Source of the DNA: an uncultured Prevotellaceae bacterium
GTDB taxonomy: Bacteria > Bacteroidota > Bacteroidia > Bacteroidales > Bacteroidaceae
DNA length: 64,000 bases
NCBI GenBank assembly: GCA_947167515.1
Contig: CAMVIM010000004.1
Span: forward strand, 62,001 to 126,000
Direction: 5' to 3'
Below the pieces are notes generated by a model. The model saw nothing but the letters and a program-made list of their open reading frames with translations. It did no database searches and was not told where the DNA came from. The position numbers and the translations under genes were made by a program. This document shows positions 1,490-62,791 of the stretch, one piece after another (within the stretch, counting starts at the first letter, position 1; every line of letters begins with the position of its first letter).

Positions 1490-1534
1490 TTTGGGGGGAG
1501 TTGGAGGGGGCTTTATTCTTGTTAGGAAGAGGAT

Positions 1535-4105
1535 TTATTCTTGTATATAAATGCGTTGAACTCTGTTGCTGATGCCTGTCAGCACCTCGTATGGAATGGT
1601 GCCAAGGGCATCGCTGAGCACAGTGACAGGCAGATGGTCGCCAAATATTTCCACTTGGTCACCCTCCTTGCAGTCGATGTCGGTCACGTCAATCATGCAG
1701 ACATCCATGCAGATGTTGCCCACATAGTCGGCTTTCTGCCCATTCACCAGACAATAGCAACCCCGATTGCCGAGATGACGGTTGAGACCATCGGCATAGC
1801 CAATTGGAATGGCTGCAATGCGGCTGTCACGTTCCAAGACGGTGCGACGCGAATAACCGATGCTGTCCCCCTTCGGCACATCACGAATCTGTAGGATGGT
1901 GGTCTTCAGTGTCGCTACATTATTCAATATATGGTTGTTGCGTGCATTGATGCCATAAAGTCCCAAACCCAGACGCACCATGTCCAAATGATATTCGGGG
2001 AAATGCTCTATGCCAGCAGAATTGCAGATGTGACGGATAATCTTATGGGAATAAGCAGCCTGCAACTGACGGCTGGCACGGTCGAAGAGGTCGAACTGAC
2101 GATGAGAGAAGGCATCGAACTCATCGCCATCGCTGCCCACGAAATGGCTGAACACCGAACAAGGCACCAAAGCCGACTGCCTGTTCAACCGCTCAATCAG
2201 ACGCGGCATGTCCTTTTCAGGATTGAAACCCAACCGATGCATGCCCGTGTCGAGTTTGATATGGATGGGGAAGTTGGTGATGCCCTCCTTCTCCGCAGCA
2301 TAGATGAGTTGCTCCAGCAGGTCGAAACTGAACACCTCAGGTTCGAGGCTATAGTCGAACAGCATCTTGAACGAGGTGGTTTCCGGGTTCATAATCATGA
2401 TGTTGGCAGTGATTCCCGCCTCGCGAAGGTCTGCCCCCTCGTCAGCCACAGCCACAGCCAGATAATCCACCCCATTGTCCTGCAACGTCTTGCTCGTCTC
2501 CAACGAACCCACGCCATACCCACTTGCCTTCACCATGCACACCATCTTCGTCTCAGGTTTCATAAAACGGCGATAATAGCGCACATTGTTGACAAGGGCA
2601 TTGAGATTCACCTCCAAGATGGTTTGGTGCACCTTCAGCGTCAGGAGGTCGCTCACCTTATCGAAACGGAACTGACGGGCACCCTTGATGAGCACAAACT
2701 CATTGCGCAGCTGTTCAAACACCTCACTGCGGATGAGCGCATCAGTGGTGCGGAACATATAGTGCTCCATTGGGAAATACCCCTCACAAGCCATCAGTTC
2801 CTCGCCCACCCCAATCACTTTCTCTATACCGCGAGAGGCAGCCATCTGTGCCACACGCGAATAAAGGCTTCGGGGTGATTCTCCACTCTGAAGAATATCG
2901 CTGAGAATCAAGGTGCGATGCTGTTTCTTCGTTTCCGGACGGCGGCTCATGAAATCGAGGGCAATGTCCAACGACTGCACATCAGAGTTATAGGAGTCGT
3001 TGATGAGCGTACATCCATTCTTTCCGTCCTTCACTTCCAGACGCATCGCCACAGGTTCCAAACGGCTCATACGCTCGCATAAGACAGAGAGCCTCTCTGC
3101 CCTACGGGCATCTTCCCCGTGAAAGGGGATACCATCCGGATGGTTCATCCCCCCTTGGGGGGACAAGAGGGGGGCTTTCTCCACCGCCAACACAGTAGAG
3201 AAGCAAGTGATGGAGTTTTCGATGGAGGCATCATCAATGAAAGGAATGGTGTATTGCCCCACTTGTCCTTGATATTCAAAATGGATGGTTGCATGATGAT
3301 TGTCTTTTTCCACCTGACGCACCTGCAACTTCACACGTTTCACCTCCTCAGGCAAGGTTTCAGCACACTGCTGGATGGAGGCATCCTCCGAGTTGAGAAC
3401 CAATGTCTTGCATCCCTTGAAAAGCTGCATCTTCTCAGCACACTTGATGCCATAACTCATAAAATTCTCCTGATGCGCTGCACCCAAGTTGGTCATGACA
3501 CCAATGGTGGGTTTCACGATGCGTTCCAATTTCGCCATCTCTCCGGGTTGCGAAATACCTGCCTCGATAATGGCGAGGTCATGATGAGGATTGATGAGCC
3601 ACACGCTCAAAGGCACACCCACCTGACTGTTATAGCTGCGAGGTGAGCGGCACACGTTGAAATCGGGCGAAAGCAGCTGATACAGCCACTCCTTCACCGT
3701 TGTCTTACCATTCGAACCCGTGATGCCGATCACTGGAATGTTCAACTTGCTGCGATGATAAGCCGCCAAGTTCTGCAAAGCCTGCAAAGGAGACTTCACC
3801 ACAAGGAAATTGCAAAGTCCCTTCCCTTCCTCCCCCCAAGGGGAAGTGTTGCCATCCGGATGGTTCATCCCCCCTTGGGGGGACAAGAGGGGGGCCTCCT
3901 CCACCACAAAGTTGCGCACACCTCGACGGTACAACTCATCTATATACTTATGTCCATCGTTCTTCTCTGTCCGCAAAGCAAAGAAGAGCGTCTCCTCTGG
4001 AAAGCAAAGGCTTCGGCTGTCAATCAACAGCCAATTGATTTTTGCCTCTACTGTTCCTTTTCTCTCTGCGCCAATCACTTGCGCAATTTCATCAATCGTG
4101 TACAT
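1535..4105 (-). CDS. murF-alr: Bifunctional UDP-MurNAc-tripeptide:D-Ala-D-Ala ligase / alanine racemase
   Basis: Residues ~1-480 are a Mur ligase: ATP loop GITGSNGKTT at ~127-136, then NDSYNSDVQSLD. Residues ~490-856 are a PLP alanine racemase: MVKASGYGVGS with the Schiff-base Lys, and SIGYSRRTV with the catalytic Tyr. The fused enzyme makes D-Ala and loads D-Ala-D-Ala onto the muropeptide; this fusion is known in Bacteroidales. The MurF half carries two in-frame copies of a palindromic repeat, encoding [15 protein letters not shown] at ~71-85 and ~311-325, in loops where relatives have shorter linkers. The GSCFA gene ends 26 bp upstream, so they are probably cotranscribed. Confidence 0.95.
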   Translation of the reverse strand: MYTIDEIAQVIGAERKGTVEAKINWLLIDSRSLCFPEETLFFALRTEKNDGHKYIDELYRRGVRNFVVEEAPLLSPQGGMNHPDGNTSPWGEEGKGLCNFLVVKSPLQALQNLAAYHRSKLNIPVIGITGSNGKTTVKEWLYQLLSPDFNVCRSPRSYNSQVGVPLSVWLINPHHDLAIIEAGISQPGEMAKLERIVKPTIGVMTNLGAAHQENFMSYGIKCAEKMQLFKGCKTLVLNSEDASIQQCAETLPEEVKRVKLQVRQVEKDNHHATIHFEYQGQVGQYTIPFIDDASIENSITCFSTVLAVEKAPLLSPQGGMNHPDGIPFHGEDARRAERLSVLCERMSRLEPVAMRLEVKDGKNGCTLINDSYNSDVQSLDIALDFMSRRPETKKQHRTLILSDILQSGESPRSLYSRVAQMAASRGIEKVIGVGEELMACEGYFPMEHYMFRTTDALIRSEVFEQLRNEFVLIKGARQFRFDKVSDLLTLKVHQTILEVNLNALVNNVRYYRRFMKPETKMVCMVKASGYGVGSLETSKTLQDNGVDYLAVAVADEGADLREAGITANIMIMNPETTSFKMLFDYSLEPEVFSFDLLEQLIYAAEKEGITNFPIHIKLDTGMHRLGFNPEKDMPRLIERLNRQSALVPCSVFSHFVGSDGDEFDAFSHRQFDLFDRASRQLQAAYSHKIIRHICNSAGIEHFPEYHLDMVRLGLGLYGINARNNHILNNVATLKTTILQIRDVPKGDSIGYSRRTVLERDSRIAAIPIGYADGLNRHLGNRGCYCLVNGQKADYVGNICMDVCMIDVTDIDCKEGDQVEIFGDHLPVTVLSDALGTIPYEVLTGISNRVQRIYIQE
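3132..3175. repeat. In-frame palindromic repeat, family A copy 1
   Basis: This 44-bp block is identical to 3852-3895 and near-identical to the reverse complement of part of 62262-62330. It contains two perfect palindromes, CCATCCGGATGG and CCCCCCTTGGGGGG, and ends in AGAGGGGGGC. It lies in frame in the MurF domain. Downstream in the coding sense, an extra stretch (HGEDARRAERLS) is probably also foreign to the family. Confidence 0.93.
3832..3895. repeat. In-frame palindromic repeat, family A copy 2
   Basis: This copy is longer than copy 1. It has a third C/G palindrome-like arm (CCCCCAAGGGG at 3834-3844) before the 44-bp core at 3852-3895. It encodes residues ~71-97 of MurF-Alr, between the NFVVEE strand and the NFLVVKSPLQAL strand, a surface loop of MurF domain 1. 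The reading frame is kept across it. Confidence 0.92.
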
Positions 4106-4131
4106 CTTTTTGAAAACTTAAATCTTCACTC

Positions 4132-5019
4132 TCAATTATCAATTATATTCCGATGTTGGCTCTTTCGCCACTCTTTCGTTGCTTTCGCCACAGCATCTTT
4201 GGTTTTATTATCTAAGTAAGTGTCTTGGAATCGCTGCCAAATATACTCCACTGCCTTCTCGGAGGGATGAATCATATCATCGGCATAGAAGCGGTAGTCA
4301 CGCAATTCATCTATCATTATTTCGTAGGAGGGGAAATAGCCGCATTTACTATTGGGCAACTGACCATTGACTATTTCATCCACAGCTTGGAGCAGAATCC
4401 CCTTTGAAATCTGGTTCACATGATAGCCGTCGCGCTTATGGCGGATAGGGCTGACCGTAAAGATGACCTTCAAATTCGGGTTCACACTTTCCAGCAATTG
4501 CAGGAGCATCTGCCATTGGTCAACGATGTCGTAGGCGTTCAGGCGTTCGCGCACAAAAAGGTTGTCCGGCTGTTTATGGCAGTTGGCAACCAGCATGCCC
4601 GTCTCCTTCAACCGATAAATGATGGCTGTTCCCAACGTGACAATCAGCACATCGGCACCACGCAAGAAATTCGCCACCTCATGTGTGGTACGGTTGATTC
4701 GTGCCACCAGTTCCGCAAGGTCTGCGGAAGAGAAGTTACTATGATGCATCCACGAGTGCCACACACCGTCCATCTCTCCCCGAATCAGTTCTGCCGACTC
4801 TGCTGCATATTCCCTCTCGCTGATACTTCTCAACAAGCTGGCGGCAATGCTGGCAGGGTTGTAGAGGGTGCCAAAGGGATTGACCCTTGCGTCGAAACCT
4901 CCACGCGCCATCCTCTGCCCCACCTCGTCGGCGAAGCACGACCCTATCAGCAGCACTTTCGCGCCTGCCTCCATCTTCCATTCCGACTGGGGAATGTCTA
5001 TGCGTGTCATCAGTTCCAT
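4132..5019 (-). CDS. GSCFA domain protein
   Basis: A 295-residue protein with the family signature GSCFADEVGQRM near residue 27, VNPFGTLYNPAS, TLGTAIIY and a terminal DDMIHPSEKAVEYIW. GSCFA proteins resemble SGNH/GDSL hydrolases (Gly/Ser block, late D-x-x-H), and the substrate is unknown. The ATG at 5019 overlaps the upstream gene's TGA by one base, so translation is probably coupled; a TTG lies one codon earlier. The last codons (NIIDN) come from a TCAATTATCAATTAT repeat that recurs near 41710. The position before murF-alr suggests an envelope role. Confidence 0.88.
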   Translation of the reverse strand: MELMTRIDIPQSEWKMEAGAKVLLIGSCFADEVGQRMARGGFDARVNPFGTLYNPASIAASLLRSISEREYAAESAELIRGEMDGVWHSWMHHSNFSSADLAELVARINRTTHEVANFLRGADVLIVTLGTAIIYRLKETGMLVANCHKQPDNLFVRERLNAYDIVDQWQMLLQLLESVNPNLKVIFTVSPIRHKRDGYHVNQISKGILLQAVDEIVNGQLPNSKCGYFPSYEIMIDELRDYRFYADDMIHPSEKAVEYIWQRFQDTYLDNKTKDAVAKATKEWRKSQHRNIIDN

Positions 5020-48007: not shown

Positions 48008-48658
48008 GTGAAAAGAAACACGTTGGTTATAGGATTGTTAGCAGTGGTTTGTGCCATGCTTCCACTCTGCAGTCAGGCACAGGAGGTGAAGGCCGATGCC
48101 GAGACCGACCGTGCCATGACAGGAGAACCCATCTTCACCCACCAACTCTACTACACCGGCATGGTGGACTACGAGGGCGAGATGATACCCAGTTTCCAGT
48201 ACAGCGACTTCTACGTGTTCAAGAAACTCACCTTCAAGAGTCCCGCACAAGCCCGAAAATACTACAAGATAGCCAACAACATCAAGAAAGTCTATCCCCT
48301 CGCATGCGAGATTCAGGCCACAGTCAACCAGACCATCGCCCACATGGACTCGCTGCCCACCAAGAAAGAGAAAGATGCCTACATGAAGCAGCAGGAGAAG
48401 GAACTGAAGGCGAAGTACTACCCCCGACTCAAGAAACTCACCTTCGCACAAGGCAAACTCCTCATCAAACTCATCGACCGCCAGTGCGACATGACGGGCT
48501 ACGAACTCATCAAGAAATACATGGGCGGCTTCAAGGCAGGCTTCTACAACGCCTTCGCCTCCCTCTTCGGCGCCAGTCTGAAAAAGCAATACGACCCCGA
48601 AGTGGACGACCGACTCACCGAACGCGCCATCCTGCTGATTGAGAGCGGACAAATGTAA
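48008..48658 (+). CDS. DUF4294-like secreted protein
   Basis: Starting at GTG 48008 gives 216 residues with a signal peptide (VKRNTLVIGLLAVVCAMLPL, cleavage after CSQAQ). A TTG 24 bp earlier lies inside the probable -7 box (TAATTTTG, 47979-47986) and is disfavoured. Helical, charged body with YYTGMVDYEGEMIPSF and RQCDMTGYELIK, resembling the DUF4294 family of Bacteroidetes periplasmic proteins. Function is unknown. Confidence 0.85.
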   Translation: MKRNTLVIGLLAVVCAMLPLCSQAQEVKADAETDRAMTGEPIFTHQLYYTGMVDYEGEMIPSFQYSDFYVFKKLTFKSPAQARKYYKIANNIKKVYPLACEIQATVNQTIAHMDSLPTKKEKDAYMKQQEKELKAKYYPRLKKLTFAQGKLLIKLIDRQCDMTGYELIKKYMGGFKAGFYNAFASLFGASLKKQYDPEVDDRLTERAILLIESGQM

Positions 48659-48698
48659 CCTCATTGACCATTTGACCATTTACAATGTACAATTTGCC

Positions 48699-49280
48699 AT
48701 GCGGAACAGGAAACTGACAATAACCGAAATGGGGCGCATGAACGCAGAAGAGTTTCGTGCGTCAGAAAAGATGCCCCTCATCGTGGTGCTTGACGACGTG
48801 CGCAGCATGTACAACGTGGGCAGCGTCTTCCGCACCGCCGATGCCTTCCGCGTCAAAGCCATCCACCTGTGCGGCATCACCGCCCAACCACCACACCCCG
48901 AAATACACAAGACAGCCCTCGGAGCCGAAGACACCGTGGCCTGGCGACACTTCCCCACCGCCCTGGATGCAGTGGAGGAACTGAAAAGCCAAGGCTACAC
49001 CATCTTTTCCATCGAACAATGCCAAGGCTCCACCCCCCTGCAGACCCTCCAGACCCTCCCCTCACCCTCCAACTCCAAATACGCCATCGTGCTCGGCAAC
49101 GAAGTGAAAGGAGTCCACCAAGAAGTGGTCGATGCTTCCCACGGCTGCATCGAGATTCCCCAGTTTGGCACCAAACACTCCCTCAATGTCAGCACCACCG
49201 CCGGCATCGTTATCTGGGAATTTGCCAAACACCTCCTCATCCCATCACCTCCCCCTTCCACACCCCCAAAACAGGTGTGA
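48699..49280 (+). CDS. TrmH/SpoU-type RNA methyltransferase
   Basis: A 193-residue SPOUT enzyme with VVLDDVRSMYNVGSVFRTAD, LCGITAQPPHPEIHKTALGA, VLGNEVKGV and the knot motif FGTKHSLNVSTTAGI. It probably methylates a ribose 2'-OH in tRNA or rRNA. The start lies within a repeat also found at 60664-60683. Residues ~114-125 (LQTLQTLPSPSN) are encoded by a family B repeat, and the stop codon lies in a GGTGTGACTCACACC unit. Three repeat families thus touch this gene. Confidence 0.92.
   Translation: MRNRKLTITEMGRMNAEEFRASEKMPLIVVLDDVRSMYNVGSVFRTADAFRVKAIHLCGITAQPPHPEIHKTALGAEDTVAWRHFPTALDAVEELKSQGYTIFSIEQCQGSTPLQTLQTLPSPSNSKYAIVLGNEVKGVHQEVVDASHGCIEIPQFGTKHSLNVSTTAGIVIWEFAKHLLIPSPPPSTPPKQV
49040..49071. 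repeat. Repeat family B fragment inside the TrmH-type gene
   Basis: CTGCAGACCCTCC and AGACCCTCCCCTCACCCTCC match the arm of the palindromic element at 61879-62003. It is in frame and encodes a Leu/Gln/Pro-rich loop before the VLGNEVKG strand. Confidence 0.82.
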
Positions 49281-61858: not shown

Positions 61859-61860
61859 CC

Positions 61861-62021
61861 CTAATTGGCAAAGGGAAGAGCCTGCAGACCCTCCCCTCAC
61901 CCTCCCTACAGGGAGGGGGTGGTTACCTTGTTCGTTTGTTTACTCATTGACAGAGATACCACTCCCTCCCTGTAGGGAGGGTGAGGGGAGGGTCTGAGGC
62001 TGGCTAATTGGCAAAGGGAAG
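61861..62021. repeat. Palindromic element (family B) flanked by 18-bp direct repeats
   Basis: CTAATTGGCAAAGGGAAG occurs at 61861-61878 and again at 62004-62021, where it is the 3' end of rnhB. Between them, arms CAGACCCTCCCCTCACCCTC...and its inverse (near 61882-61915 and 61963-61997) surround an AT-richer centre. This looks like an insertion that duplicated its target, including the end of rnhB. Confidence 0.85.
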
Positions 62022-62681
62022 TTCGAGTTGTGCCGACCCCAGCAGGTTGAAAGTCATGCGGTGATAGGGTGTGGTGCCGTGATTCAGGATGCCTTGGCGG
62101 TGTTCCTTGGTGGGATAGCCGGCATTGTGGTCCCATCCGTAGAAGGGGAACTCCTTGTGCAGTTCTTTCATGTAGTCGTCGCGATAGGTCTTGGCCAGGA
62201 TGGAGGCTGCAGCGATGGAGAGGTATTTGCCATCGCCCTTCACGATGGTGGCGTGAGGAATCAGCCCCCCTCTTATCCCCCCAAGGGGGGAAGAACCATC
62301 CGGACGGTTTCCCTCCCCCTTGGGGGCTGAGGAACCATACGGCATAAACCTGTTGCCATCGATGATGAGGTACTCTGGTCGCACCTTCAGCCCATCAATC
62401 GCACGGTGCATGGCCGTGATGCTGGCACGGAGGATGTTCATCTCGTCAATCTCTTGTGGCGTGACGATGCCCAACGCCCAGGCCACGGCATCACGTTCAA
62501 TCTCCTCTCTGAGCCTGTACCGCTGTCTGGCCGTGAGTTGCTTCGAGTCGTTCAGCAGGTCGTTGTGGTAGTCGGGCGGCAAGATGACCGCCGCTGCATA
62601 CACACTCCCTGCCAGACACCCTCGCCCAGCCTCATCGCATCCCGCCTCAATCAGGCCTTCTTTATAATAAGGTAATAGCAT
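62004..62681 (-). CDS. rnhB: Ribonuclease HII
   Basis: A 225-residue protein with [12 protein letters not shown] (catalytic Asp-Glu at 15-16), [15 protein letters not shown], and [17 protein letters not shown]. It removes ribonucleotides from DNA. Residues 117-141 ([19 protein letters not shown] and on) are a family A palindromic insertion between the IDGN strand and PHATIVKGD; without it the protein would have the usual ~200 residues. The stop is within an 18-bp repeat duplicated at 61861. Confidence 0.96.
62262..62330. repeat. In-frame palindromic repeat, family A copy 3
   Basis: The same element as 3132-3175 and 3832-3895, with all three C/G or CCGG palindromes. It lies in the opposite orientation relative to its host gene and in another reading phase (encodes [18 protein letters not shown] rather than [14 protein letters not shown]). 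The element is thus open in more than one frame. Confidence 0.92.
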
Positions 62682-62686
62682 ATATA

Positions 62687-62791
62687 AGGTAAAAGTGAAG
62701 AGTGAAAAATTTGCTACCGCACATGTAAGTCAACAAAATGACCATCTGCTGCGATAGCAAATTTTTCACTTATCATTTTTCACTTATCCTT
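62687..62791. repeat. GTGAAAAATTTGCTA inverted repeat
   Basis: AAGTGAAGAGTGAAAAATTT and GCTACCGCA at 62693-62722 are inverted at 62748-62788 with a short loop. It fills the space between the SDR gene stop and rnhB. A GTGAAGAGTGAA string also occurs at 60522-60538. Confidence 0.85.

Follow-up and report, generated by a model that had tools for sequence, protein, structure and literature searches.

The window analysed here, a 64,000-nucleotide stretch of contig CAMVIM010000004.1 from an uncultured Prevotellaceae bacterium, contains an open reading frame (ORF) for a MurF-Alr fusion protein (murF-alr; positions 1535–4105, minus strand, 856 amino acids) that carries, in frame, two copies of a short palindromic element. 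Comparing sequences within this genome and across its genus, we conclude that these copies, together with their counterparts in other genes, are probably non-autonomous, mobile palindromic elements; inside genes they persist as insertions that keep the reading frame. This reading is drawn from three observations: (i) copies occur at unrelated loci, (ii) the same sites are empty or differently filled in other alleles, and (iii) the frame is kept in every allele examined.

The murF-alr ORF is recognizable by its Pfam matches to Mur_ligase_M and to both Ala_racemase domains. As a preliminary description of this DNA had reported, a 44 bp block occurs twice within it, identical at positions 3132–3175 and 3852–3895. 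The block belongs to a 59-nucleotide family whose copies lie 720 nucleotides apart and are 93% identical; the reading frame is intact across both blocks, and each contributes 15 amino acids. The inserts themselves extend beyond the 44 bp to which that description had confined them. Element 1 (3815–3895, minus strand) is a type A/A dimer of ~81 nucleotides, in frame at about amino acids 71–97 (27 residues). Element 2 (3092–3175, minus strand) is a chimera of ~84 nucleotides with a type A left arm and a type B right arm, in frame at about amino acids 311–338 (28 residues). Each contains the core palindrome CCATCCGGATGG (3852–3863 in element 1, 3132–3143 in element 2). The core is a perfect palindrome, so that part of the earlier claim of consecutive perfect palindromes stands; CCCCCCTTGGGGGG, for which the same had been claimed, is a stem-loop. 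A chance repeat is not a concern, because the element recurs elsewhere in the 3.68 Mb genome (best E 5.9e-15). In sequence alignments with MurF proteins of solved structure (1gg4, 2am1), both inserts fall in unaligned stretches between aligned segments: element 1 follows the first segment, which aligns only weakly, and precedes the aligned middle domain; element 2 separates the middle and last aligned segments. An Rfam search of positions 1500–5000 gave nothing over the gathering score, all matches to whalefall-1 being sub-threshold. MurF-Alr is 99% identical in RUG204 and RUI029 (record titles name Prevotellaceae/Bacteroidaceae, many of them rumen).

Type A elements consist of two inverted hairpin arms joined at CCATCCGGATGG, about 80 bp in all (76–92 bp in 12 copies from this genome). 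More generally, a full element has two hairpin arms in inverted orientation, which end similarly (AGCCCCCTC or AGACCCTCYCC) and are joined at a core. Two sister families, B and D, end much like type A, and B shares its core. The C6/G6 units on either side of the core are stem-loops. With at most one mismatch, CCRTCCGGAYGG occurs 63 times, against 21 times for a reversed control. The frame in which an element is read varies from gene to gene (giving SPKGE, SPQGG, PPRGE, PLGG/PLGE or PPWGD), indicating that the spreading unit is DNA rather than one peptide; nor is a fixed sequence required, since nine full paralogs in this genome differ by 15% on average. Type A copies tested from ORFs have four to six of six frames open, the non-coding copy has three, and the three type D copies tested have one to three. 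Few type A copies exceed their own shuffles in stop-free frames, which are therefore attributable to base composition. The contrast between A and D fits where each family sits, yet base composition accounts for it.

Counted genome-wide, as the preliminary description had proposed, type A is dispersed. Two BLAST searches of the genome (G000; 3.68 Mb in 74 contigs), with pieces ≤200 bp apart merged and only E ≤ 1e-3 accepted, gave 24 sites. The sole non-coding site is C39:27505–27681; the other 23 lie, in both orientations, inside ORFs of 21 genes, all of which match a Pfam or NCBIfam family over the cut-off. These are murF-alr (two sites), rnhB, a PF01883 FeS-assembly gene labelled sufT, GH95, pyrG, two near-identical primase-like genes, an ArgE/DapE-like deacylase, a flippase-like gene, recO, an S9 peptidase, trpA, leuS, mutY, GHL10, an "outer-membrane-type" protein (two sites; CarbopepD_reg_2 is its sole match and the remainder of the label is our reading), topB, cobJ-cbiC, GH3, rsgA and apgM. 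A joined B+D query (E ≤ 1e-3) added six type B sites, all within ORFs: aroE, the deacylase (its second insert), a helicase-like gene, a RapZ-domain gene, a MiaB-like radical SAM gene (two split halves), and a PPTase-like ORF whose insert, close to the N-terminus, may lie ahead of the true start. Of the nine type D sites, four are in ORFs (an MFS-like gene with Pfam below the cut-off, a cobQ-like gene, uvrA and a leucine-rich-repeat protein). The remaining five are outside ORFs; one of them is in the window, and another, C3:143024, contains the end of an ORF in its first codons. In cobJ-cbiC, the RapZ-domain gene and the helicase-like gene, the elements lie between Pfam/NCBIfam domains.

If the additional residues were ancestral, relatives should all possess them, and here the preliminary description had placed its test. 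Empty alleles exist. Among 25 genomes of the genus, our own included, murF site 1 is filled in nine: by type A in G000, G017, G014 and G003, by type D in G002 and G007, by an A-like dimer in G023, and by a half element in G005 and G013. Site 2 is filled in five: by the A/B chimera in G000 and G017, by B in G014 and G005, and by A in G013. No element is recognized at site 1 in 16 of the 25 genomes (loops of 10–18 amino acids) or at site 2 in 20 of the 25 (loops of 11–26 amino acids), loop DNA not having been individually folded in either case. Across 80 named loci, element-free loops mostly span 9–18 amino acids at site 1 and 11–17 at site 2, with longer exceptions; the loop evidence leaves out ORFs L126, L145, L159 and L160 (translated in the wrong frame) and L044/L109 (frame-broken, and used at the DNA level alone).

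The comparison was extended to ten host genes in seven congeners, giving 72 alleles (61 of 70 congener alleles, ten of our own, and an extra sufT copy from G017). All 72 inter-anchor lengths are divisible by three and stop-free, and each gene has at least one congener allele without a recognized element. The elements of rsgA, aroE and apgM are found in our own genome only, among the congeners compared. Genus-wide, 29 of 45 genomes match type A at E ≤ 1e-3, and 16 give no match; at most 20 candidates were scored per genome, so that counts for rich genomes are lower bounds. Order-wide, at least 11 of 393 genomes, our own included, match at E ≤ 1e-5, with at most two candidates scored per genome. 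The seven of these loci that were read outside the genus comprise three well inside long ORFs (L218, L219, L222), two near ORF N-termini and thus ambiguously placed (L224, L221), and two outside ORFs (L220, L223).

Single sites show turnover as well as presence and absence. In pyrG, the position after EIKRRMLR holds type A in G000 and G017, B in G013, D in G003, and nothing in G016, G005 and G024; G014 has a short AGACCCTC remnant at the same spot, consistent with deletion between the CCCTC repeats of a G003-like allele. The mutY loop varies in the same way, with A in G000, B in G013, D in G005 and, in other cases, no element. At murF site 1, G003 carries type A, while its sister G002 (98/95 support in the alr tree) carries type D beside an A-end remnant. 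The linker of cobJ-cbiC holds A in G000, G432, G017 and G003 and B in G013; G016, G011, G005 and G014 have linkers of other kinds. Arms are exchanged too: at murF site 2 a B right half is retained alongside a left half of type A (G000, G017) or B (G014, G005). In the topB, flippase-like and MiaB-like genes two element halves flank a host or spacer segment.

Two further ideas about these loci were discarded. The G002 murF-alr gene is not broken by its D element, as the frame is open through the element and the break lies elsewhere; and the element did not create the cobJ-cbiC fusion, element-free congeners being fused too. Some individual alleles deserve separate mention. In mutY of G017 and G003 (L237, L236), tandem GAATTAGGAATGAG-like repeats (ELGMRNEELGIG) fill the loop in which other members of the genus bear an A, B or D element. 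In G007, CobJ and CbiC are on separate contigs (L315, L317), and each terminates in element-like sequence containing a stop; either an assembly break or a rearrangement at the palindrome is possible. The trpA element of G014 (L217) contains a 39-nucleotide core segment with an inverted half-core that is absent from that of G017 (L225), and may be read as a step in arm/core remodelling.

Other copies lie within the window. A third family copy (62263–62328, minus strand) is in frame in rnhB (ribonuclease HII ORF, 62007–62729); it is present in G014 and G017 and absent in G013, G003 and G024. Just downstream of rnhB is an intergenic type D element of 110 bp (61886–61995; termini AGACCCTCCCC/GGGGAGGGTCT), spanned by no ORF and with one of six frames open within it. 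A probable type D arm fragment (49048–49070, plus strand) is in frame in a SpoU-type methylase ORF (48639–49277); its E value of 0.0024 misses the threshold used for the counts.

Several side observations concern the same genes and repeats. Over 72 codons, rnhB shows no third-position differences between G000 (L003) and G014 (L195), while other genes of the pair differ much; this may be read as a recent between-species transfer of the region. G017 has two sufT-like genes at contig ends (L241, L321), just one of which carries the element; mixed strains, duplication and polymorphic insertion are all possible. The near-identical primase-like genes (L007, L008) lie on different contigs and carry the same element, the duplication having probably come after the insertion. 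Intergenic repeats of G000 whose flanks are quite different contain the bare core CCATCCGGATGG as well (C40:2508, C28:2972, C72:147, C40:13067, C19:69761, C9:93964; loci L022–L024, L026, L028–L030), which suggests that further element families share the core. Another in-frame repeat family, AACTGTCAACTGT-like (with peptides such as LSTVNSQLST), is found in coding loops of the genus (L212 and L228 in trpA; L077, L078, L008; L115).

The model that fits the data best combines movement by a putative end- or hairpin-recognizing activity with subsequent selection for tolerated in-frame landings. Such an activity would insert copies at new places, most of which would be lost; those kept would lie in tolerant loops and inter-domain linkers, where they would be tolerated because the G+C-rich element has few stops and a net length that is a multiple of three. 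Later, arms would swap at the common core, and elements would decay to halves or short in-frame remnants. Some alleles probably pass between species by recombination.

A number of results weigh against this model. Mobility is deduced from sequence comparison, transposition itself not having been observed, and the carrier genomes, as far as they are named, are metagenome bins. In aroE, apgM and rsgA the element replaces a native loop of a few residues; a native loop is often replaced, and these are therefore not clean insertions into the sequence of the relatives. None of 48 element instances, a set with some overlapping or orthologous members, showed a target-site duplication: adjacent direct repeats measure 0–2 nucleotides, and the longest flank repeat averages 4.92 (4.64 when one 18 bp case is set aside), against 4.47 (sd 0.14) for shuffled partners. 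That case is a direct repeat around the D element downstream of rnhB (61859–62022), and it includes the rnhB stop codon; in G014 a diverged counterpart of the duplication encloses another insert at this position, and insertion of D with target duplication therefore does not by itself explain the repeat. Nor do the 19 exact AGACCCTCYCC sites of our own genome include any pair at insertion sequence (IS) spacing (type A ends were not so tested). Two more adverse results, the low divergence of elements at fourfold sites, which simple neutral inserts alone would not predict, and an association of type A with Y1 transposase genes in the genus, bear on rival explanations and are considered with them below.

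Between G000 and G017, elements judged orthologous differ at 7 of 100 fourfold sites, and their flanks at 63 of 200 (Fisher p = 5.9e-7). Five other species pairs give the same direction (p from 8.2e-7 to 4.4e-4), although the test covers up to nine places, its pairs and sites are non-independent, and elements of another subtype at the same site were left out (trpA and sufT of G000; murF site 2 of G014, G005 and G013), an omission that favours low divergence. The cobJ-cbiC element is an extreme case, identical over 87 nucleotides between G000 and G003 while 50 of 135 flanking third positions differ. The trend is opposite between G000 and the near-identical RUG204, where the murF elements differ at 7 of 168 positions and flank third positions at 7 of 184. 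Conservation of this kind would be expected of domesticated inserts, kept because a DNA/RNA hairpin or peptide serves the host gene in a way that selection favours; the folding of the murF site 2 element, better than shuffles (z = -4.46), points the same way. However, such a role is difficult to reconcile with the several reading frames in use, the majority of congeners that do without an element and the divergence among paralogs; the site 1 element has only a slight folding advantage over its shuffles (z = -1.84), and predicted stems are not poorer in changes (32/891) than the remaining positions (15/440), so that stem-specific constraint is rejected. We consider domestication quite improbable. 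Ectopic gene conversion is likewise rejected as the main cause of low orthologue divergence, given how far apart the paralogs are. Among carriers, third-position divergence also dips beside the element (53/260 in the nearest five codons versus 253/734 at 21–60 codons), and does not do so in empty pairs (359/677 versus 1563/3143) or mixed pairs (408/918 versus 1512/3566); the paralog and near-flank comparisons additionally omit the near-identical G000–G017 murF site 1 pair, the G014 rnhB and murF site 2. The dip hints at short-tract transfer of filled alleles between species, with nucleotide-level constraint as the alternative. Near-unchanged orthologous elements, diverged flanks and a dip confined to carriers together raise the possibility of homing-like alleles: elements spreading between species into the same essential-gene site with very short co-converted flanks, and exchanging halves at CCATCCGGATGG. 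This seems to us conceivable, if doubtful.

The two inverted hairpin units and spacer also resemble REPINs, and the elements could be repetitive extragenic palindromic (REP) sequences driven by a REP-associated (Y1) tyrosine transposase (RAYT), present or since lost, with intragenic copies an accident of tolerance. Among the 45 genus genomes, Y1_Tnp (PF01797) scores above the Pfam cut-off in 14; type A matches are present in 13 of them, compared with 16 of the 31 others (Fisher p = 0.008); for the eight genomes with stronger Y1 matches (≥44 bits), the figures are 8/8 and 21/37 (p = 0.037). One of three RAYT loci read (L257, in G425) has a type A-like right half (about 1000–1045) ~400 nucleotides upstream of the RAYT ORF. 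On the other hand, the remaining two loci have no such arms, and Y1_Tnp is absent from our own genome (control positive in 5 of 14) and from the element-rich G014 and G013. Copy number does not track Y1 (means of 6.0 type A copies with and 5.2 without, these counts being lower bounds), and the genomes richest in type A (G017, G003, G000, G014, G432, G011) have no Y1 match of ≥44 bits. The termini (AGCCCCC / AGACCCTC) are not GTAG or CGTC, and type A is nearly all intragenic, REPs being mostly intergenic according to excerpts of PMC3733652. A congener RAYT as a tightly linked partner is thus unsupported—weakened, though not closed, given the Y1/type A association—and we regard the REP/RAYT explanation as a whole as unlikely. 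An autonomous IS with B/D ends in our own genome is also unsupported, as no ends lie at IS spacing; viral contigs gave no matches to four exact patterns, and plasmids gave no match. Finally, an ancestral protein sequence or an ordinary coding duplication, in place of mobile DNA, could draw on the 10–18 residue loops that element-free congeners have at site 1. That the same DNA turns up across unrelated genes, in either orientation and in several frames, and that empty and differently filled alleles exist, makes this practically untenable, and the earlier statement that simple duplication of coding sequence is not involved thereby holds.

The best-known protein-coding palindromes are those of Rickettsia and Wolbachia, in which they could be put down to genome reduction and an intracellular lifestyle. 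The lineage studied here is one of gut/rumen Bacteroidota with genomes of 2–4 Mb, and the 45 genomes of its genus allow gain, loss, arm exchange and possible transfer to be read from sister species. Our findings suggest that essential enzymes have repeatedly acquired loops and linkers from mobile hairpins. The natural pairs of filled and empty alleles could be used to gauge the cost of an insert, and a caution follows for annotation: where proteins of this group contain SPLPTSPKGE-like peptides, these can stem from inserted DNA instead of being features of a protein family.

Among known systems, the cyanobacterial small dispersed repeats are very short mobile repeats of about 21–27 bp, some of them intragenic; they differ from the present elements in that no such arm/core architecture is known from them. 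Bacterial miniature inverted-repeat transposable elements (MITEs; ERIC, Correia, RUP) are similarly small with inverted termini, and terminal inverted repeats are present here; some ERIC and Correia copies are fused in frame with genes, according to excerpts of PMC2229807. Unlike MITEs, the present elements show no target-site duplication, and the exact AGACCCTCYCC sites of their own genome revealed no IS-like copy with B/D ends. They resemble REPIN/REP-RAYT systems in their paired inverted hairpin units with a spacer and in the Y1 genes that some members of the genus have, and REPs located within ORFs have been described (PMC3733652, in excerpt); they differ in lacking a GTAG/CGTC tag and an own-genome Y1_Tnp, and in being mainly intragenic.

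The closest likeness in description is to Rickettsia palindromic elements (RPEs) and the Wolbachia palindromes of Ogata and co-workers: short palindromic repeats with inverted ends, dispersed in multiple copies and several families, that are inserted in frame into many unrelated, mostly conserved genes; here, relatives have empty alleles of these genes. RPEs inside ORFs are described in excerpts of PMC3733652, PMC2229807 and PMC10969869, and the excerpt of PMC2229807 leaves target duplication by RPEs undecided. The resemblance to Rickettsia elements in another phylum, proposed in the preliminary description, is supported by the empty alleles and the genome-wide dispersal. Set against the RPE accounts available in excerpt, the present elements, likened to them by description, differ in several respects: the host belongs to Bacteroidota and not Alphaproteobacteria; their length is 76–92 bp (12 type A copies) and not 105–146 bp; and 23 of 24 type A sites are in ORFs, compared with nearly half for RPEs. 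In addition, arms are exchanged here at a shared core, and one loop is filled by different families. The string "Bacteroid" is absent from the main text of PMC2229807 and PMC10969869, and the excerpt of PMC3733652 names Bacteroidetes once, among phyla with CGTC repeats. Among the open-access literature matches listed there is no report of in-frame palindromic elements in Bacteroidota, which is not proof of absence. The elements are best classed as protein-coding palindromes of the Rickettsia type, a known kind, in Bacteroidota; what is new is the host phylum, the modular arms, and the repeated filling of the same loops.

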